From a virus, in IMG/VR virus record IMGVR_UViG_3300027749_000021, positions 1-35,751 of that record: a DNA stretch of 35,751 nt. One strand, written 5' to 3'. Positions 128 through 33,865 of the stretch are shown here, piece by piece. Position 1 is the first letter of the stretch; each line of letters opens with the position of its first letter. Below the pieces are notes generated by a model that saw nothing but the letters and a program-made list of their open reading frames with translations, was not told the origin of the DNA and did not search any database. The translations under genes and the position numbers were made by a program.

Positions 128-210
128 TTTAGGTTTTTCTTATTAATATCGTTACATCGGATATATTGATAATGTAAAATTTTTGAGTGATTTTTATTGT
201 TAGGAATTTA

Positions 211-240
211 CGCCCAACATAATGTGGTCTTTTTAATATG
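211..240 (-). promoter_or_regulatory. Intergenic element with attC-core-like and late-motif-like sequence
   Basis: This lies between the spanin candidate and the metallophosphoesterase. On the minus strand it reads ACCACATTAT followed by ATGTTGGGCG. The first ten bases are identical to part of the motif before the 7677 gene. The last ten are identical to the right core of hairpin sites A and B (30918-30927 and 31582-31591). No matching hairpin arms are visible. It may be a weak promoter for the metallophosphoesterase and endolysin, or a solitary core-like site. Its role is unknown. Confidence 0.3.
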
Positions 241-249
241 TATAATTTT

Positions 250-888
250 TTATACAAATAATAATGCTTTAGCCAACCATTCAGCAAGAGGGATATATTT
301 ATTATTGTAAGCCCATTTTAAGCCAAAATAAATTGGTATTAATACCAATAGCAACCAAAGCCAATTACGATGTTTTTCTTTAGTTGTATTAACTATTTTC
401 AACTCTTTTTTTAAGTCGGTGCTGTCAAATGTTTTTTTGTTGGCACTATCGCCTTTTTTTAGTTCAAGTTTAGTTGTAGCTGAACTATTTTGCACATCTT
501 TTTTTGTGGATGAATTTTTAGAAGTTTGATTAACATTTTTTAACGGCTTGTTACTTGTAATTTTAGTAACTCCAGCACTATCACTAATGGTTAATTCTGT
601 TTTTTTATCATTGTATCTGGTAGTGTCAAACTCAATATTGATAGTGTTTTCACCATCCGCAATAGTCGTTTTATCGCTGCTGTTACCTTTTGTTTCTTCA
701 ACCAGGCTATCAATGAAACTGTGAACCGCACTATCTACTTTGTGAACGCTTACACTATCTTCTTTCAAGTGTTCGCTTGATCGTGTTTTGTTTACAGAAC
801 CACAACCCCACAAGCCTAATAACGTCATTGATAAGAATAAAATAATTATCCCTATTGCTACTTTTTTTGCACTTATTTTCTGTAACAT
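250..888 (-). CDS. Candidate unimolecular spanin (lipoprotein with C-terminal membrane segment)
   Basis: The protein has 212 residues from the start at 888, which was chosen because it opens directly on a lipoprotein signal (charged MLQKISAKK, hydrophobic stretch, lipobox LWGC) and lies 10 bases after the preceding holin-like gene. A long hydrophilic Ser/Thr/Lys-rich middle follows. Near the C terminus is one membrane segment (WLWLLLVLIPIYFGL), then a short tail. A lipid anchor for the outer membrane plus a C-terminal inner-membrane anchor is the plan of unimolecular spanins, which fuse the two membranes at the end of lysis in Gram-negative hosts. The position next to two holin-like genes supports this. 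No sequence similarity to a named spanin is claimed, so the call rests on topology and context. It is longer than the phage T1 example as I recall it. Confidence 0.6.
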   Translation of the reverse strand: MLQKISAKKVAIGIIILFLSMTLLGLWGCGSVNKTRSSEHLKEDSVSVHKVDSAVHSFIDSLVEETKGNSSDKTTIADGENTINIEFDTTRYNDKKTELTISDSAGVTKITSNKPLKNVNQTSKNSSTKKDVQNSSATTKLELKKGDSANKKTFDSTDLKKELKIVNTTKEKHRNWLWLLLVLIPIYFGLKWAYNNKYIPLAEWLAKALLFV

Positions 889-898
889 AATTAAATTT

Positions 899-1123
899 TT
901 ATTTAAGCTGTTCTGTTGGTGTTGATTTCTTACTACTACCAAAATAGTAACCTGCAACTCCAGCAACAAATGACCCAAGAACAAAGCCAATAGTAATGTT
1001 TGTTATGTCTTTATTTTCACTTGGAATTTTAATCAATAACAAAGCAAATAGAAATACAAACGAGCATACTGTAATAATTAATGCAAGTAGTTCTGTAATG
1101 TTTTCTTTAATTTTTGATAACAT
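899..1123 (-). CDS. Holin-like small membrane protein
   Basis: The product is 74 residues with two predicted membrane segments (about 12-31, LLALIITVCSFVFLFALLLI, and about 43-62) joined by a short polar loop, and a charged tail ending KKSTPTEQLK. This size and topology fit a class II holin, which makes the hole in the inner membrane that starts lysis. It sits between another two-segment protein and the spanin candidate, so the three probably form a lysis cassette. Which of the two is the holin and which an antiholin or accessory protein cannot be decided from sequence. Confidence 0.6.
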   Translation of the reverse strand: MLSKIKENITELLALIITVCSFVFLFALLLIKIPSENKDITNITIGFVLGSFVAGVAGYYFGSSKKSTPTEQLK

Positions 1124-4146: not shown

Positions 4147-4844
4147 AAATTTCTATTTAAGAATTGTATAATTTGTGCATTTTGAATATCAACACCAAAC
4201 GTAAATAACCCACTATTTGCATCGTATGAATATTGATTTGGTGATGGATTATTACTAATAGGAGTTAATAATTTATCACCCATAAATAACATTAATATTT
4301 GCTTCCCAATTAAACTATTAACTGTAATTTGAGTTCCCTCATTACCACTTCCTGTATATATGTAATTATTAACTATCATATCTTTTGTTGGTTCAAATGT
4401 TACATCATTAGCTGGCACACTACATCTATCACTTAAAAAATCAACACTTATTAAAACATCAATTTTAACAGCCCCAACTAAGTCCTCAAACTTCTCCTCA
4501 TAATACTCGGCATTATATACAGTGCTAATATTCCAATCATCCTGATAGCCTGTATAATTTAGCATTGCTAAATAATCTTGTGCTATACTGAATAAATCAC
4601 TTTCAACATCATTTTTATTTTCCCTGCCTACACTTACTAAATCACAAAACCATATTGAGAATTTATGAAATGTTTGTTTGTCATCACGACTTATTGTTGT
4701 TCCTGTACGCTCAACAAAACAAGCAACATATTTTGCCTCACCATTTGCCAACCATTCAACTATGTTGTCATAGTAAAAATGATTAATTTGCTTGTGGCTT
4801 AGTGCTAATGTTTCCAGCCTTTTTACTATCTGATTTAATGTCAT
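4140..4844 (-). CDS. Probable tail completion or adaptor protein
   Basis: The product is 234 residues with no signal or membrane segment. The first half has helix and strand blocks (MTLNQIVKRLETLALSHKQI, then WFCDLVSV and VESDLFSIAQDYLAML), resembling small tail-terminator or neck proteins in layout. The second half has a short beta-rich appended domain (VNNYIYTGSGNEGTQITVNS). It follows the neck-like gene at 4915-5502 and precedes the fibre. The context suggests a head-tail joining or tail-tip role, but no motif is diagnostic. Confidence 0.5.
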   Translation of the reverse strand: MTLNQIVKRLETLALSHKQINHFYYDNIVEWLANGEAKYVACFVERTGTTISRDDKQTFHKFSIWFCDLVSVGRENKNDVESDLFSIAQDYLAMLNYTGYQDDWNISTVYNAEYYEEKFEDLVGAVKIDVLISVDFLSDRCSVPANDVTFEPTKDMIVNNYIYTGSGNEGTQITVNSLIGKQILMLFMGDKLLTPISNNPSPNQYSYDANSGLFTFGVDIQNAQIIQFLNRNLC

Positions 4845-7316: not shown

Positions 7317-7677
7317 AAGTTATATATTCAATGTCAGGAGCATTTGTTTGATATAATGGTGTTACAGTTTCTTTTAACTCCATACGACCCACTTCAACTA
7401 TATTCAATCCTGTTGGATCCGTATTTGTATCATTATCTTGCTCATAAATGGTATAAGAATATTGTCCAACTTTAGTAATATAATTTGATGTATTTATTAA
7501 AAACTCATTATATCTTAAAGGGTATGGACTTAAATCACCTGGTGCAATAAAAGCAACTTGAACTTTAGTTGTTAAATGTTCAAATATGAATAAGTAGTAA
7601 GCGTTTGTTATAGTAGTCTTTTCAGTTACTGTAACTACCATTTTTTCCCCTGTACTATCTTTATGCAACAACAACAT
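7306..7677 (-). CDS. Conserved structural-region protein, beta-rich
   Basis: The product is 123 residues with alternating strands: VVTVTEKTTITNAYYLFIFE, then VGQYSYTIYEQ and VGRMELKE. I have seen similar short proteins with the pattern TEKTT-TNPYYLF next to portal genes of Bacteroidota phages, but no function is known to me. It opens the portal-neck-fibre block, directly after a strong terminator and 26 bases after a copy of the repeated late motif (7685-7711). It may be a decoration or connector protein. Confidence 0.6.
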   Translation of the reverse strand: MLLLHKDSTGEKMVVTVTEKTTITNAYYLFIFEHLTTKVQVAFIAPGDLSPYPLRYNEFLINTSNYITKVGQYSYTIYEQDNDTNTDPTGLNIVEVGRMELKETVTPLYQTNAPDIEYITYAR

Positions 7678-7684
7678 ATTTATA

Positions 7685-7711
7685 ATGTGGTGCTATGTTA
7701 ATATTTGCCAA
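7685..7711 (-). promoter_or_regulatory. Late-block motif, copy 1 (TGGCAAA-N13-CCACAT)
   Basis: On the minus strand, TGGCAAA (7710-7704) is followed by 13 bases, then CCACAT (7690-7685). The start codon of the next gene is 26 bases after TGGCAAA. Two further copies with the same spacing precede the genes at 10731 and 18179. It follows a terminator, so a promoter is needed here. It does not match the host-type TAnnTTTG box, so it may be phage specific. Confidence 0.5.
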
Positions 7712-7713
7712 AT

Positions 7714-7745
7714 AAAAAAGCAACACTGTTAAATGTTGCTTTTTT
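7714..7745 (-). terminator. Rho-independent terminator after tail tube gene
   Basis: A 12-bp perfect stem (AAAAAAGCAACA at 7714-7725 with TGTTGCTTTTTT at 7734-7745) has an 8-base loop and a T run on the minus strand. It lies 24 bases past the stop of the tail tube gene. Flanking A and T runs could let it work in both directions. Confidence 0.85.
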
Positions 7746-7769
7746 TGTAAAATGTATTTTATTTTAATA

Positions 7770-8291
7770 CTATGTTCCTGCTGTTTGTAATGCTGAAATT
7801 GTAGCACTATCAACTTCATAAGCTGGTACTAATTCCTCTCCTTTTAAATCAATTTCAAAACCATTTCTATCTCCTAATTTTGTTCCAGTCATAGCTTTAA
7901 CAGTTGAAACAACAAGGCTATTATTTAAACCATACAACCAACCTTTTCCATTTTGATCTACTACTACTGCAATCAATCTATTTGCACTCAATAAAAGCAA
8001 TTCATTTCTAACACTTGCTTGAAGTTTGTTAGCATAGAATTTTATAATTTGAGAAACAAACGAAGTTCCATTTTCTTCATTTACTGTAATAGTTTCTTCA
8101 GCCATTGCAGTTTGTTTAACTACATTATATTTTCTAAAAGCCTTACCTGTTGCTTTAGTGATTGAAGTGATGACACCAGCAGTTGGAGTAGGTGTAGTAA
8201 TGTTTGCAGCTTCAATTAAATAAACTGCTTTTACACCACCTTTGCTATCTATACAATCTAAATTAAGATCTTGTGTTAATGCACACGCCAT
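7770..8291 (-). CDS. Probable major tail tube protein
   Basis: The product is 173 residues and begins MACALTQDLNLDCIDSKGGV. Bacteroidota phages carry a family with this opening (Met-x-Cys-x-Leu...Asp-Cys-x-Asp-Ser-x-Gly-Gly) as an abundant structural protein, taken to be the tail tube. The rest alternates strands with a conserved-looking SVRNELLLLSANRLIAVVVD block and an Asn-Gly turn (NGKGWLYG). The gene stands alone between two strong terminators directly after the major capsid gene. Such isolation suits a protein needed in many copies. The tail tube role is inferred from family memory and context. Confidence 0.6.
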   Translation of the reverse strand: MACALTQDLNLDCIDSKGGVKAVYLIEAANITTPTPTAGVITSITKATGKAFRKYNVVKQTAMAEETITVNEENGTSFVSQIIKFYANKLQASVRNELLLLSANRLIAVVVDQNGKGWLYGLNNSLVVSTVKAMTGTKLGDRNGFEIDLKGEELVPAYEVDSATISALQTAGT

Positions 8292-9568: not shown

Positions 9569-10120
9569 TTATTTTCTTAATTCCTTTACTGCTTTTGTAA
9601 TAGCTTCCATTCTTTCAGCTCTGCTTGCAGATTTATCACTTCTAAAAGATTGTGCTGGAGCTGCTGGAGCTGCTGTTGGTATTTTAGCAAGTTGTTCTAC
9701 AACACTTAATAATCCCTTAATTACTTCATCTTGCTTGCTAATTGTTTCTTGTGCAACTGCAAAAGATTGTTTATGTGCTGTAAAATCACTTTGCAATTTT
9801 TCAACAGCTCTCATATACTTTTGCATTTCTGCCTGTGGCTCTGATGCTTCTGCTGGTCCTGATTCAATTTCTGTAATTATTCCACCAACAGTAGTAATGT
9901 TTGTTCCATCACTCAATACATATTCTGCATCAGGAGCAGGTACACCACCAATTAAAACTTTTCCACCCACTTCCATTTTATCAACTGTAATAGCCGTTCC
10001 ATCTTGTAATGTAGCATCTACCATTTTAGCAGGTGCAGATGGAGCTACTGGTACTTCAGGAGTAGCTGGCATATCGTTAAACAACGCTTTAATTTTTAAT
10101 AATGTTTCTGTAACGTTCAT
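9569..10120 (-). CDS. Probable capsid scaffold protein
   Basis: The product is 183 residues. The N-terminal part is rich in Pro, Ala and Val. A small beta region follows (DGTAITVDKMEVGGKVLIGG, then EYVLSDGTNITTVGG). Residues about 95-150 form a helix or coiled coil (MRAVEKLQSDFTAHKQSF), ending in an Ala-rich linker and a basic tail (RAERMEAITKAVKELRK). A coiled coil with a basic end directly upstream of the capsid gene and after the protease gene fits a scaffold that guides head assembly and is then removed. No single motif proves it. Confidence 0.65.
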   Translation of the reverse strand: MNVTETLLKIKALFNDMPATPEVPVAPSAPAKMVDATLQDGTAITVDKMEVGGKVLIGGVPAPDAEYVLSDGTNITTVGGIITEIESGPAEASEPQAEMQKYMRAVEKLQSDFTAHKQSFAVAQETISKQDEVIKGLLSVVEQLAKIPTAAPAAPAQSFRSDKSASRAERMEAITKAVKELRK

Positions 10121-15363: not shown

Positions 15364-16541
15364 TATCTGTATTGTGTGTTTAACTTAGGAGAAAATTCAA
15401 ACTCAATAGAAAGATTAGAAACTTTATTGCTATTGCTTAAATAATTATTTACTTCATAATCTGTTGTAGTTATTGTAATTGGCACTAAATACCCTGCATC
15501 ATCAAAATAAATAATTGGAGATAGTATTAAATCTTTCAACCATATATGTTCTTCATCTGTTAAGTTTTCGGTATTTATTTTTATCTTTTCAGCATAGCTT
15601 ACTGCAAATGTTGTTGCCCCATCATACATTACATTATTTGAATTGCATAAAGACATCATACCACTGCTATCAATTCTATATTGTTGTTGTTGGTATTGCT
15701 TACGCTCAAATGTTAAACTTTTTCTCGAAACCTTTCTAAAATCAAAACTTTCAAAACCTCCATATTGGTTCATAAAATGCAAGCAGTAAGGAGTATATTT
15801 AGCTTCACAAACTACATTCATCCTATATACATAACCATTAATTGAAATAGTGTAATAATAAACACTGCTATTAATTTGATATGTAAAAAATGAATTGCAT
15901 CCAATAGGCGAAATATCTAAAATCAATAATTTGTTTGCAGGTATTGTTAAACTCTTTGTTTCTGTAGTTATTAATGTATTGGATGAATTATATGAATTAA
16001 TAATTATTGATGTTGTTGTTGATGATGAATTGTTGAAATAATTAATAAAACTTCTATAACCACCAAACAAAACACTATTAATATAAGGTCTATTCGTTAA
16101 TACTTTGGATGTTGAATTTAATATTGTTTCAGAAGATGTTAGCCTGCCATTATAATGATTGTAGTAAGCAACTTCACTTGAATCTGTATGTGCAGTATAT
16201 TCTACCCCTCCATATTCTTCTCTAAATTTACATTGAACTTTTAAGAACCATTCATTTTCACCAAATGATTGTGCTAAAAACATATTATTTACAGGGGAAA
16301 ATTCAAAGGATATATAGTTTCTTACACTTCGTGAAATATTAAATATTCCCCTACTATTTGCAGGATTTGGAAATGTTTTTAATACAGCAATTTTAACACC
16401 ACCAACATAAATATCACAAATGTATTTATAGTTTGGATATGTTACAGGGTCAGTTGCTTTAACACTTTCATAAGCTGTGTAAATTAAATCTCCATTTAAA
16501 CTACTATAAGCTGCTGGAGTATCATTTATTGTCATTGCCAT
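15363..16541 (-). CDS. Probable distal tail or baseplate protein
   Basis: The product is 392 residues and mainly beta. It opens with a domain like those in other Bacteroidota phage tail genes (YKYICDIYVGGVKIAVLKTF, then RGIFNISRSVRNYISFEF). A Ser/Thr/Tyr-rich middle follows (IIINSYNSSNTLITTETKSL), and it ends with DEEHIWLKDLILSPIIYFDD and an EFEFSPKLN tail. The gene lies between tail completion genes and the hub protein. A second possible start is Met3, at 16535. It overlaps the upstream gene by 20 bases. The role is inferred from position and family memory. Confidence 0.55.
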   Translation of the reverse strand: MAMTINDTPAAYSSLNGDLIYTAYESVKATDPVTYPNYKYICDIYVGGVKIAVLKTFPNPANSRGIFNISRSVRNYISFEFSPVNNMFLAQSFGENEWFLKVQCKFREEYGGVEYTAHTDSSEVAYYNHYNGRLTSSETILNSTSKVLTNRPYINSVLFGGYRSFINYFNNSSSTTTSIIINSYNSSNTLITTETKSLTIPANKLLILDISPIGCNSFFTYQINSSVYYYTISINGYVYRMNVVCEAKYTPYCLHFMNQYGGFESFDFRKVSRKSLTFERKQYQQQQYRIDSSGMMSLCNSNNVMYDGATTFAVSYAEKIKINTENLTDEEHIWLKDLILSPIIYFDDAGYLVPITITTTDYEVNNYLSNSNKVSNLSIEFEFSPKLNTQYR

Positions 16542-16825: not shown

Positions 16826-17482
16826 TTAGTTGCTTAAATAATTTACAATATCTATTTTTAATGATTTACTTAATTTATCAAGTGCTAAATCTTTTACTTG
16901 CGTTTCTGCATCAGTCCAAAAATGTGTAGCTTTCAATCCTTTTTTTCTTACACTTCGTGAAATAGCTATTGCAGTTGAAAGTGAAGCATCTGTTATTCTT
17001 GATTGTTTATGTTCTCTTTTGCTTATTTGATGTCCGCTTTTCTTGCTTGTGTTTCTGCTTTGCAAGTGTTGTTGTATAACCCATTTACGAATAGCATCAA
17101 CCATTTTACTTTCTTTCTTCCCACTTTTACCTGAGTAGTTTTGAAACTTATATGGGCTACCTTGAGAATTTTGCCAACCATTTACACCTTTATCAATGAA
17201 CTTATAATAATCTGCAACATTTATTTCAAGCGTATATAAAGAACCCAACACTTTTATTTCAAGTGGTTTTATACTATCTCCTAAAAACCCACTTGCAACC
17301 CTATCTGAATTATTTAAGTTCTCATTTGCTTTTTTAACAAATTCGGCACCTATGTATGTAAGTGCATCCACAATATTGTCAAGTTTGAGTACAGGTATTT
17401 TATTTTGAGCATTATAGATTAGTAAATCCAAAAACCCACCATCACCTGTAACTGATGATTGACCCTCGCTAATTGTTGGCAT
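16826..17482 (-). CDS. Tail completion protein, HK97 gp10-like
   Basis: The product is 218 residues. The central part has the pattern of gp10-like minor tail or head-tail joining proteins: a helix with AEFVKKANENLNNSDRVASG, a strand block SLYTLEINVADYYKFIDKGV, a Gly/Ser loop, and MVDAIRKWVIQQHL. The C-terminal half is basic (KKSGHQISKREHKQ). Such proteins close the tail end that joins the head. It overlaps the gene before it by 14 bases. Confidence 0.6.
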   Translation of the reverse strand: MPTISEGQSSVTGDGGFLDLLIYNAQNKIPVLKLDNIVDALTYIGAEFVKKANENLNNSDRVASGFLGDSIKPLEIKVLGSLYTLEINVADYYKFIDKGVNGWQNSQGSPYKFQNYSGKSGKKESKMVDAIRKWVIQQHLQSRNTSKKSGHQISKREHKQSRITDASLSTAIAISRSVRKKGLKATHFWTDAETQVKDLALDKLSKSLKIDIVNYLSN

Positions 17483-30826: not shown

Positions 30827-30833
30827 TACTTGC

Positions 30834-30926
30834 TACCAACGAAAAAGTGTTGAAGTTGTTGGGCAAAAAAAGACACTTCAACACGCAGACGCAGTCTGCC
30901 CAATAACTGCAACACAAATGTTGGGC
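30834..30926 (+). repeat. attC-like site A
   Basis: Left core TACCAAC (30834-30840), gap GAAAAA, arm GTGTTGAAGTTGTTGGGC (30847-30864), partner arm GCCCAATAACTGCAACAC (30898-30915), gap AAAT, right core GTTGGGC (30920-30926). Arms match at 16 of 18. The middle also contains ACTTCAACAC (30875-30884), a perfect partner for the first ten bases of the left arm, so two folds compete. No upstream module start matches this left core. Confidence 0.8.
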
Positions 30927-30972
30927 GAAGAATGGGCTATTAATTAGGGTGTGCCAAACTAAAAAATAATAT

Positions 30973-31454: not shown

Positions 31455-31590
31455 GCCCAACGAACAGGGCTTGGCGTTTGGCCCTTGAATTTGAAATACT
31501 AATGCTCAAAATTTAAACTAAAGATGAATATAATTAATGAAGTTCAGCCAATTTCCGTCTGCAAGGGTAACGCCAAGCCTAATGTTGGGC
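31455..31590 (+). repeat. attC-like site B
   Basis: Left core GCCCAAC (31455-31461), gap GAACAG, arm GGCTTGGCGTTTGGCCCTTG (31468-31487), partner CAAGGGTAACGCCAAGCC (31562-31579), gap TAAT, right core GTTGGGC (31584-31590). The left arm has two extra bases near position 12, which would bulge out. The 74-base middle contains the start codon of the module 2 gene. Confidence 0.85.
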
Positions 31591-31808
31591 GAAGTTTTTA
31601 TGTCATTAAAATTCATAAAGAATTGCAAGATAAAATAAACATTTATTTGTTTAAACCTACTATTTACAGATTTGCAGATAGAAGTGTAGTTTCAGATTAT
31701 CTAGGCTACTGTACTGATTGGACTACTTGGTATTTGCCAAAAAGACTACATAATAAAAATTTAAAAATAGTGTCTTACGATAAAACTCAAATAACTGTTG
31801 GTTGGTAA
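31524..31808 (+). CDS. Module 2 gene, starts inside site B, function unknown
   Basis: The product is 94 residues. The first 21 or so residues (MNIINEVQPISVCKGNAKPN) are read through the middle and right arm of site B, and the rest is module sequence (RSFYVIKIHKELQDKINIYL, DYLGYCTDWTTWYLPKRLHN). No in-frame ATG exists after the right core, so a start in the hairpin is the best choice, unless a rarer codon is used. The stop lies 6 bases before the left core of site C. Confidence 0.5.
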   Translation: MNIINEVQPISVCKGNAKPNVGRSFYVIKIHKELQDKINIYLFKPTIYRFADRSVVSDYLGYCTDWTTWYLPKRLHNKNLKIVSYDKTQITVGW

Positions 31809-31814
31809 AATTTC

Positions 31815-31952
31815 GCCCAACGATAGGGCTTGCTGCTGTTGGGGAAATCAAGGCTCGTCCGCCCAATAGCTTATTAACTAAAAGTACAATAATGAACAAA
31901 AAGATGATAGCGGTTCCGTCCTGCCCCAATAGCAGTAAACCCAATGTTAACC
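31815..31952 (+). repeat. attC-like site C
   Basis: Left core GCCCAAC (31815-31821), gap GATA, arm GGGCTTGCTGCTGTTGGGG (31826-31844), partner CCCCAATAGCAGTAAACCC (31924-31942), gap AAT, right core GTTAACC (31946-31952). Arms match at 16 of 19. A second partial partner, GCCCAATAGC, lies at 31861-31870. The middle carries two in-frame ATG codons (31892 and 31904) of the HNH gene. Confidence 0.85.
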
Positions 31953-32572
31953 GCCGTTTATGGTCGGAGCAGGAACGTCAAATTATGATTAGTATGTTTT
32001 CAAATAATTATACTGATGATGTTTGTAAAATACTCAACCGTAGTTATCATTCTGTTTGCTCACAGTCTAATTTGATGGGTTTAAAAAAGTCGGATAGTTT
32101 CAGAAAAATGGAACTTCAAAGACAGGCTGATAGGCTGAAAGTTGCAGGGGAAAAATTCAGATACAAAAAAGGTAGAGAGCCTGAAAATAAAGGTAAGCCA
32201 ATGAGCAATCAATTATACAATAAGTGCAAAGGCACAATGTTTAAAAAAGGAAATGAGCCACACAATACTAATTACGATGGTCACGAAAGAATAAGCAAAG
32301 ATGGCTACACCAAAATAAGAATAAGCAAAGGGAAATATGTTTTAAAACATAGGCTTATTTGGGAGCAAACAAACGGCAAAATTCCAAAAGGTTTTATTGT
32401 TGTTTTTAAAGACCGAAATCAACAAAATATAACTATTGAAAATTTAGAGTTGATAAGTAGAGAGGAAAATATGCAACGCAATACAATACATCGTTTTCCT
32501 GCTGAATTAAAAAGTACAATAAGATTAGTTAATAAATTAAAACGAAATATAAATGCCAAAGAACAAAATTGA
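31892..32572 (+). CDS. Module 3 HNH endonuclease, starts inside site C
   Basis: The product is 226 residues from 31892. After 20 residues coded by the hairpin (ending SSKPNVN), a Myb-like or HTH part begins at once (RRLWSEQERQIMISMF, DVCKILNRSYHSVCSQSNLM). The HNH part follows: YDGHERISKDGYTKIRISKG, KYVLKHRLIWEQTNG, KGFIVVFKDRNQQNITIENL. The conserved opening Trp sits just after the right core, so translation must start in or before the hairpin. It resembles free-standing phage HNH nucleases. It overlaps the next gene by 20 bases. Confidence 0.75.
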   Translation: MNKKMIAVPSCPNSSKPNVNRRLWSEQERQIMISMFSNNYTDDVCKILNRSYHSVCSQSNLMGLKKSDSFRKMELQRQADRLKVAGEKFRYKKGREPENKGKPMSNQLYNKCKGTMFKKGNEPHNTNYDGHERISKDGYTKIRISKGKYVLKHRLIWEQTNGKIPKGFIVVFKDRNQQNITIENLELISREENMQRNTIHRFPAELKSTIRLVNKLKRNINAKEQN

Positions 32573-32777
32573 AGATTTAAGAAATCACTTGTTTGCAACC
32601 TTAGAAGCCTTACAAGATGAAGACAAGCCTATGGAAGTTGACAGGGCTAAAACTATTGCAGATGTTGCACAGGTAATTGTTAATAGTGCAAAAATTGAGG
32701 TTGATTTTATCCGTGCTACTGGTAGAAGTCAAGGCACAGGGTTTATACCTGAGGAACGTCTGTTAAATGGCGGTTAA
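32553..32777 (+). CDS. Module 3 second gene, DLRNHLF phage protein
   Basis: The product is 74 residues: EDLRNHLFATLEALQDED, then RAKTIADVAQVIVNSAKIEV and a short end. This pattern is common in small phage and prophage early proteins, often beside an HNH gene as here. The function is unknown to me. Its stop codon TAA lies inside the left core of site D (GGTTAAC), as is frequent for integron cassette genes. Confidence 0.75.
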   Translation: MPKNKIEDLRNHLFATLEALQDEDKPMEVDRAKTIADVAQVIVNSAKIEVDFIRATGRSQGTGFIPEERLLNGG

Positions 32778-32874
32778 CGAAAAAGGCTTGGCGAAGAAAT
32801 GGAATTTGGAAAACAAAAGCTGAATAGCGATAGCGGAACGTCAAGCCATTTTTTTGCCAAACCATATGTTAGCT
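32772..32874 (+). repeat. attC-like site D
   Basis: Left core GGTTAAC (32772-32778), gap GAAAAA, arm GGCTTGGCGAAGAAATGG (32785-32802), partner CCATTTTTTTGCCAAACC (32846-32863), gap ATAT, right core GTTAGCT (32868-32874). Arms match at 15 of 18. CAAGCC at 32842-32847 gives a second partner for the start of the left arm. No useful start codon lies in the middle. Confidence 0.8.
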
Positions 32875-32930
32875 GTTGCTTTTTGTCTGCAAGACAATGG
32901 ACACAATTATTAAAAATTAAATTATAAATA

Positions 32931-33347
32931 ATGAATCAGTTTTTACAAATTAAACATTTAGCTGCATACTTACCTTATGGGCTACCAATTACAAATGGTT
33001 ATAGAGATGACTTAATAATGTTTGGCATAAAAAGCCATTATATTTGTTCATATTGGTTTGTCAATGGTGCAGAAAAAAATACAGTAAGTAATTTTTTAGA
33101 AAGTTACCCATTTTTAAAGCCGTTGTCTGATTTAAAAGATGTTGTAAGTACATCAATGAGTGAAATAAACACAGACACTTTAATAGCTATTGAGATAAGC
33201 GAGTTTGCGAATAAAAAAATATCATTACATAATTTGTCTTATGCAGCTTATGAAGAACTTTTAAGAAACCATTATGATGTATTTGGTTTGTTAGAAAAAA
33301 ACATTGCTATTGATTACAGTAAGCGTTGTGTCCAAAGTAACAGCTAA
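32931..33347 (+). CDS. Module 4 gene, phage early protein, function unknown
   Basis: The product is 138 residues: KHLAAYLPYGLPITNGYRDD, then SYPFLKPLSDLKDVVST and LRNHYDVFGLLEKNIAID. The pattern 'LAAYLPYGL...PLSDL...DVFGLL...AID' is known to me from short phage proteins of Bacteroidota, without a function. It starts 56 bases after site D. The stop TAA is inside the left core of site E (AGCTAAC), and the last residues may therefore be specific to this junction. Confidence 0.65.
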   Translation: MNQFLQIKHLAAYLPYGLPITNGYRDDLIMFGIKSHYICSYWFVNGAEKNTVSNFLESYPFLKPLSDLKDVVSTSMSEINTDTLIAIEISEFANKKISLHNLSYAAYEELLRNHYDVFGLLEKNIAIDYSKRCVQSNS

Positions 33348-33471
33348 CGAAAAAGGCTTGAAGCAGGTGGGGAATTTATAGATGAAGACGAGCCTTTGCA
33401 GTTGGTTGAATAGAGAACTAATGATGAGCCGAGTTTCGTCTGCCCCACTTGCTGCAAACCTAATGTTAAAT
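33342..33471 (+). repeat. attC-like site E
   Basis: Left core AGCTAAC (33342-33348), gap GAAAAA, arm GGCTTGAAGCAGGTGGGG (33355-33372), partner CCCCACTTGCTGCAAACC (33443-33460), gap TAAT, right core GTTAAAT (33465-33471). Arms match at 15 of 18. ATG codons in the middle and at the right core are in frame with the module 5 gene. Confidence 0.85.
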
Positions 33472-33516
33472 GCCGTTTTTGTCGAGCCGACAAGACACAA
33501 AATAAAATTTAAAACA

Positions 33517-33852
33517 ATGATAAAGTCAGCAAAAGAAATTTTAGAAAACTATTTTCCAAACCCTGATGATTTGGTTGATGGTAAAGTAAAAAATGTTATT
33601 ATTTCTGCTATGCAGAAGTATGGGCAACAATTTAAAAAATGGGTAAAAGTTACAGATGATATGCCTAAGATTGGCGTTGATAAAAACTTCCCCAATTGTA
33701 GCGAATTTGTTTTAACAACAGATTGCAATACTGTTAATTACTCATATTTTGAAGAAGGCGAATGGTGTTGTGCAAAAACAGATGAACCTTATAGAAACTC
33801 GTTCAAACCTAAATATTGGATGTCAATTTCTGATACGCTGCCTGTGTCGTAA
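33517..33852 (+). CDS. Module 5 gene, DUF551-like protein
   Basis: The product is 111 residues from 33517 (MIKSAKEILENYFPNPDDLV), chosen as the first start clear of the hairpin. The frame is open back through site E, so longer forms starting at 33382 or 33463 are possible. The C-terminal half fits the DUF551 pattern of phage early proteins: KKWVKVTDDMPK, a strand with EFVLTTDCNTVNYSYFEEGE, and KPKYWMSISDTLP at the end. The function is unknown. The stop is 3 bases before the truncated core F. Confidence 0.75.
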   Translation: MIKSAKEILENYFPNPDDLVDGKVKNVIISAMQKYGQQFKKWVKVTDDMPKIGVDKNFPNCSEFVLTTDCNTVNYSYFEEGEWCCAKTDEPYRNSFKPKYWMSISDTLPVS

Positions 33853-33855
33853 AAT

Positions 33856-33865
33856 GGCATTTAAC
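33856..33865 (+). repeat. Truncated core F (right end of the array)
   Basis: GGCATTTAAC is the exact complement of the module 5 start (GTTAAATGCC at 33465-33474). In sites A-E the AAC is followed by GA and a hairpin. Here it is followed by TCTCTGC with no hairpin, so the array ends exactly after AAC. Confidence 0.75.

Follow-up and report, generated by a model that had tools for sequence, protein, structure and literature searches.

The locus raises the question of where translation begins in a gene cassette whose reading frame continues, without an internal start codon, into the recombination site upstream of it. The window, meaning the whole stretch of 35,751 nucleotides analysed here, is a 35.75-kb record of a temperate phage in which portal, terminase, serine recombinase and CI-like repressor genes are present. 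Polaribacter, Cellulophaga and Chryseobacterium phages contain relatives of proteins encoded in or near the array, so a host among the Bacteroidota is likely. Between about 30833 and 33865, five attC-like hairpins (A to E) were found, with five cassettes between and after them. Since no tyrosine recombinase or IntI is encoded in cis in the 35,751-nt window, the array is at most a cluster of attC sites lacking integrases (CALIN). Integrase-less attC clusters are known in phages, including Polaribacter phage P12002L, and recombination by an integron integrase was shown for one P12002L attC, which may or may not be among the sites described here (Qi et al. 2023, PMC9892861).

Each cassette begins with bases that match, in reverse complement, those at its own end. 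For four of the five window cassettes this match is 15 nt long, with 10 exact positions, a G opposite A at position 11 and 4 further exact positions; in the first cassette it covers only 7 nt. The end sequence differs from cassette to cassette within the window, and the last cassette is closed by a terminal R'' (GGCATTTAAC) at 33856-33865 on the plus strand. In the circular form of integron cassettes R' and R'' join up, and the end complementarity is the geometry expected of such cassettes. Written for orientation, the rule is 10 exactly complementary positions, a G on the 5' side facing T at position 11 and 4 exact positions; it was seen in the window (31584-33865), L067, L070, L071, L072 and L010, and stretches beyond the 7-nt R box. 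By eye, a Vibrio p16 cassette shows 10 exact positions plus G/A.

All five sites lie on the plus strand and carry an imperfect L''/L' hairpin with a variable loop between the R'' and R' boxes (RYYYAAC and GTTRRRY). GTT and AAC are present in all of them, the full consensus in B; R' of C (GTTAACC) and D (GTTAGCT) and R'' of A, D and E deviate by one or two positions. Site A (30833-30929) is of medium size, with 79 nt from the R'' end to the core GTT at 30920, and its loop holds no start. Site B (31455-31598) is long (122 nt), with R'' GCCCAAC, core GTTGGGC at 31584 and a stem formed by the two arms GGCTTGGCGTT and AACGCCAAGCC; its loop contains an ATG at 31524. Site C (31815-31960) is likewise long (124 nt), with core GTTAACC at 31946 and loop ATGs at 31892 and 31904. 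Site D (32772-32882) is medium (89 nt, core at 32868), and site E (33342-33479) is long, with its core at 33465 and frame 1 open from 33382. Stem scores were 34 for C, 31 for D, 28 for E and 21 for B, compared with a 99th percentile of 20 in shuffled sequences; A scored 30 in a later scan. A stem scan with strict R boxes was dropped after missing real sites, and the cassette-end test was used instead. Mismatches occupy fixed places, and in the long sites no clear extrahelical bases were found on the bottom strand; a mini site in L042 has one candidate extrahelical base by eye.

The start codons of module 2 and the HNH gene had been placed within hairpins B and C by the preliminary description, and 31524 as well as 31892 and 31904 are indeed in-frame ATGs 5' of the respective core. 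At site B, frame 0 (the frame with the core GTT as a codon) is open from 31503 to 31808 and contains a sole ATG, at 31524, 60 nt before the GTT at 31584. The resulting ORF of 94 amino acids (31524-31808, plus strand) begins inside the hairpin with the leader MNIINEVQPISVCKGNAKPN, followed by the cassette-coded VGRSFYVIK... Cassette 2 spans 31584-31821 on the same strand, with the ends GTTGGGCGAAGTTTT and AAAATTTCGCCCAAC, which agree at 10 positions, show G/A at position 11 and agree at 4 more. The next in-frame start past the core is a TTG at 31623 (+39). Searches of viral collections yielded no relatives of module 2, the helicase loader or the DUF551-like protein; because relatives of module 2 were not found, the coding status of its N terminus rests on ORF structure.

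For the HNH endonuclease (226 amino acids, 31892-32572, plus strand; PF13392, phrog_1891), homologues were available. The gene shares cassette 3 (31946-32778, plus strand) with a phrog_2044 gene (32553-32777). Frame 0 of site C is open from 31784 to 32572, and from the upstream stop to where conservation sets in, the frame contains no start codons other than TTG 31802, ATG 31892 (-54) and ATG 31904 (-42). The next one past the core, ATG 31985 (+39), would cut into the conserved domain, as homology begins about 33 nt 5' of it. Hairpin C encodes residues 1-18 plus the G of codon 19. The relatives in L001-L004 (71-47% identity), which lack attC, align only from R21, the residue right after the core, and their own N termini differ: MSKIINKRKTST-RRIW (M-S-K-I-I-N-K-R-K-T-S-T-RRIW) and MP-RRL. 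The native N terminus is thus missing from the HNH cassette; on these alignments the native start has evidently been lost and hairpin sequence has taken over. The same alignments place the cassette edge within a normal phage gene, a few codons from its start, which bears on the origin of cassettes. HNH and phrog_2044 genes also stand side by side, without attC, in L001-L004 and form one cassette in the window; an ordinary phage gene pair was turned into a cassette here, possibly a trace of cassette formation.

Behind sites A, D and E the genes have starts of their own, located 53, 63 and 52 nt beyond the core. Of these, the module 4 gene (32931-33347, plus strand), behind D, has relatives in Cellulophaga phages that align from residue 1, an internal contrast to HNH. 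Behind E, the DUF551-like gene has an ordinary ATG at 33517 and a hairpin start is not needed. The open frame with ATGs at 33382 and 33463 described earlier for site E is present; it is not the frame shared by B and C but frame 1, reading ...N-L-M-L-N-A-V, and KPNV had never been claimed for E. Hairpin D contains a frame-0 leader ORF from ATG 32799 to a stop at 32925-32927, 3 nt before the gene start at 32931, a geometry that is that of translational coupling. Conserved coupling leaders in frame 0 at D and E were considered and discarded as not significant, E having no ATG in that frame.

The reading frame at the core was compared over all sites. In the core sequence, AARCCYAATGTTRRRY, K-P-N-V is encoded in one frame, a second frame holds an ATG belonging to the core itself (ATG-TT), and the third is always shut by TAA or TAG (CC-TAA or TGT-TAA/TAG). 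Both B and C read ...A/S-K-P-N-V in one frame, as originally noted, but because the third frame is closed and two are open, this agreement amounts to about a coin toss. Of the 12 loop-started ORFs identified below, eight are in frame 0, four in frame 1 and none in frame 2. With frames 0 and 1 both in use, KPNV was ruled out as a conserved coding motif, and a constant frame relative to the core, proposed as a check on other modules, was not borne out (8:4).

To search for further cases, the cassette-end rule alone was applied, with ORFs ignored and hence blind to starts, on records of pattern matches. Cassettes of the same type were found in five more phage records, L067, L070, L071, L072 and P12002L. 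Fifteen perfect 10+4 end pairs were counted in the window, L067, L070, L071 and L072, compared with 0.1 expected in shuffled sequences. Twelve ORFs in six phages have an ATG within the hairpin or immediately 5' of it and run on across the core. On the ORF maps these are B and C of the window, L067- 16205, 16537 and 17984, L070- 7493 and 8218, L071 6176, and L072 18666 and 19265; the remaining two, at 7926 and 17570 on the minus strand of P12002L, are annotated as gp60 and gp37, with cores at about 40764 (gp60) and 31120 (gp37) of the record. For P12002L gp37, no start whatever exists downstream of the core. Close to the core, roughly half of the 12 offer a possible alternative start (ATG at +3 twice; ATG, GTG or TTG at -2; GTG at +10), so only about six are forced. 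L070- 7493 is a border case because its left arm is lost and its start follows the promoter-like repeat of L070. In other cassettes the ATG follows the core by 22-63 nt, and by more in L071; in a canonical Vibrio integron phage seven of seven measured coding sequences start 30-97 nt past it. Loops that carry a start are homologous between L070, L067 and L072 (71-72% over 101-122 nt), yet they precede unrelated genes and differ in frame.

The pattern searches produced many chance matches. A loose arm pattern gave one true relative (L042) among 33 matches, the other 32 being chance by stem pairing; a second arm pattern gave three further relatives (L052, L054 and L055), and by the same measure seven of its eleven matches were discarded. 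The first attC patterns had matched by chance, in the coding frame of a thioesterase (L005 and L006) and in a portal gene (L007). A plasmid search with site E returned no match.

Loop starts were confined to one size class of hairpin. Over the six phages, hairpins of approximately 111-124, 78-89 and 41 nt occur, and the long hairpins of P12002L measure about 150-190 nt by eye. Loop starts were present in 11 of 16 long sites and in none of eight short ones (Fisher p=0.0018). All 11 loop-started ORFs with a measured hairpin sit behind long sites; the 12th is L070- 7493, without a left arm. Behind medium and mini hairpins, seven of eight showed no frame-matched loop start (exception, L067- 17654), and the genes have their own start past the core. 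The sequence context was scored with a model trained on 76 annotated starts of P12002L, from which gp37 and gp60 were left out. Loop ATGs resembled downstream starts (p=0.59) and scored above other ATGs (p=1.3e-6), with weak contexts at site B of the window (69th percentile) and L067- 16537 (43rd percentile). In shuffled loops, an open in-frame ATG arose with a probability of 0.08-0.16 per long site, a figure that is optimistic because the 12 cases were partly chosen by their open frame; the observed value was 11/16. For nine window and IMG/VR sites, the predicted transcripts fold as long hairpins that hold the ATG between their arms.

In 12 of 12 cases the loop ATG shares its frame with the gene that now lies downstream. 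The 3' hairpin belonging to a start-less cassette itself is in frame in three of seven readable cases (B to C, C to D, and L071 6176 to 6597). In the preliminary description the hairpin could supply a start and leader to whichever gene follows. Its first part was supported: integron-attC-like hairpins with a start signal and leader for the following gene recur in the five further phage records. The extension to any following gene was not, since each loop fits its present neighbour and only three of the seven 3' hairpins would be in frame.

Taken from the sequences, the most probable account is that start-less cassettes are translated from the ATG in the attC loop, yielding a fusion with a leader encoded by the site; we regard this with considerable confidence. 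Some cassettes (module 2, the HNH pair) would begin inside their own gene's reading frame and would carry no start codon. Initiation would occur in the A/T-rich apical loop of the upstream attC hairpin, at ATG 31524 for module 2 and at ATG 31892, less likely 31904, for HNH, and the ribosome would leave the loop, read the right arm and the crossover core (KPN-V) and go on into the ORF of the cassette. The module 2 and HNH proteins would gain a leader of 18-20 residues written by the recombination site; its length would be about 14-25 residues in the window and the IMG/VR records and about 45 in P12002L. The apical loop, the one part of the hairpin without pairing constraint, would give room for the unstructured, A-rich start region used by these phages. 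The stable stem 3' of the start may hinder elongation. Actual initiation, cassette mobility and any advantage of the arrangement are what we infer from these observations. If the account is true, a DNA-shuffling site would double as the translation start of a gene, attC would be able to serve as coding sequence in nature, cassette proteins would carry site-written N termini, and gene callers that cut starts back to the cassette edge would mis-annotate such genes. It would also bear on how promoterless cassettes get translated.

The frame match would be trivial if the hairpin were owned by the downstream gene, with a polarity opposite to that of classical integrons, so that start, leader and gene move as one and the site is the 5' end of a single gene. 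Cassette-end complementarity fits either polarity, and the agreement of the loop ATG with the downstream frame in every case, together with own 3' hairpins that are often out of frame, favours such ownership. The pair L067- 17047-17196 and L070- 7653-7801 points the same way: hairpin and 5' UTR up to the ATG are shared (90%), the upstream gene differs, and the similarity extends across G|TT but ends at the left R''. However, the downstream genes of this pair, the only one of its kind, differ too, and one gene shared by L067- (15587) and L070- (9706) has unlike 5' hairpins. Known integron integrases cut on the R' side, which also speaks against ownership by the downstream gene, and we consider it possible but doubtful. 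On this evidence the hairpins move on the 5' side of their genes, which would differ from classical integrons, or else the arrays seldom move. Another alternative is a functionless fusion in place, in which immobile arrays lose starts by decay and genes survive only where the upstream hairpin is by accident open in the right frame. Shuffling produces a chance leader frame in 8-16% of loops, the L070 and L072 arrays hold half-sites without a right or left arm, and the loops fit the present neighbour only. Against decay of this kind stand the strong link to the long hairpin class and to a start-like, A-rich context, and the homologous start-bearing loops in three phages, and we judge it rather unlikely.

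Two further explanations deny that the proteins start in the loop. The hairpin ORF might be a mere coupling leader like ORF-11 of attI1, with the proteins starting further down. ORF-11 and ORF-18 in attI1 and short ORFs in attC work by reinitiation (PMC8876359), and the leader ORF of site D, ending just short of its gene, has the corresponding form. A leader that stops at or before the gene start was found only at D; at B and C the ORF is open into the gene, there is neither a stop nor, for 39 nt past the core, a start, and HNH conservation spans that stretch, which makes the coupling leader improbable. That all starts simply lie downstream of the core, the open frames being accidental, holds at sites A, D and E; the HNH homology preceding ATG 31985 and the absence of any downstream start in P12002L gp37 leave this a very improbable explanation for the others. 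Going beyond translation from the attC loop itself, we suggest only tentatively that an attC lineage of Bacteroidota phages may constitute a portable initiation module, with an A-rich start and ATG in the loop, arms and ends free of stops in two frames, start-less genes expressed as leader fusions, and a hairpin travelling 5' of its gene.

The arrangement resembles several known systems. As in the phage CALINs of PMC9892861, attC-like hairpins stand between cassettes in a phage without IntI, and P12002L obeys the same end rule; hairpin start codons and start-less cassettes are not reported in the available text of that study. In ORF-11, ORF-17 and ORF-18 of attI1 (Hanau-Bercot; reviewed in PMC8876359), the recombination site likewise holds a start that is used for the following cassette and reaches across the crossover point, but those ORFs lie in attI, stop in or after the core and act by coupling, whereas here the site is attC and the ORF runs into the cassette protein. 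The short attC ORFs of Jacquier et al. 2009, as related in PMC8876359, also have start and ORF inside attC, opening the mRNA hairpin; they act by termination-reinitiation, in contrast to the N-terminal fusion to a start-less cassette proposed here. In the gcuF1-blaOXA-28 and aacA4 fusions (PMC8876359, PMC4670013) a cassette gene is translated from the start of an upstream element; these are rare single events, several via loss of attC, whereas the present arrangement recurs and leaves attC intact. The open-access literature yielded no description of start-less cassettes that are recurrently translated from attC loops.

Several minor observations were made on the related arrays. In L067, a 270-residue XerA/XerC/D-like tyrosine recombinase (184-996, minus strand) adjoins the cassette array; it scored 186 bits against NF040815, below the integron cut-off, and is a possible candidate for the cassette integrase. 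L072 18847-19484 (L042) is a decaying array in which left half-sites without a right arm stand beside complete mini attC sites. L067- 15587-15761 and L070- 9706-9880 hold one gene, 85% identical, with unlike hairpins and cassette ends, the homology setting in at the start codon. In L070-, a promoter/5'-UTR-like repeat (AACTAGTTTGGC...TATCTTTAGGTAAATAAAAAATAAA), at 4662, 5786, 7177, 7366, 9941, 10237, 10529, 10850 and 11406, stands in front of many genes, among them that at the left border of the array. Hairpin lengths in L067-, L070-, L071, L072 and the window cluster near 41, 80 and 119 nt, in steps of about 39, and a CGTCTGC(CCC)-like motif is common to window sites A, B, C and E, just 5' of the right stem arm.
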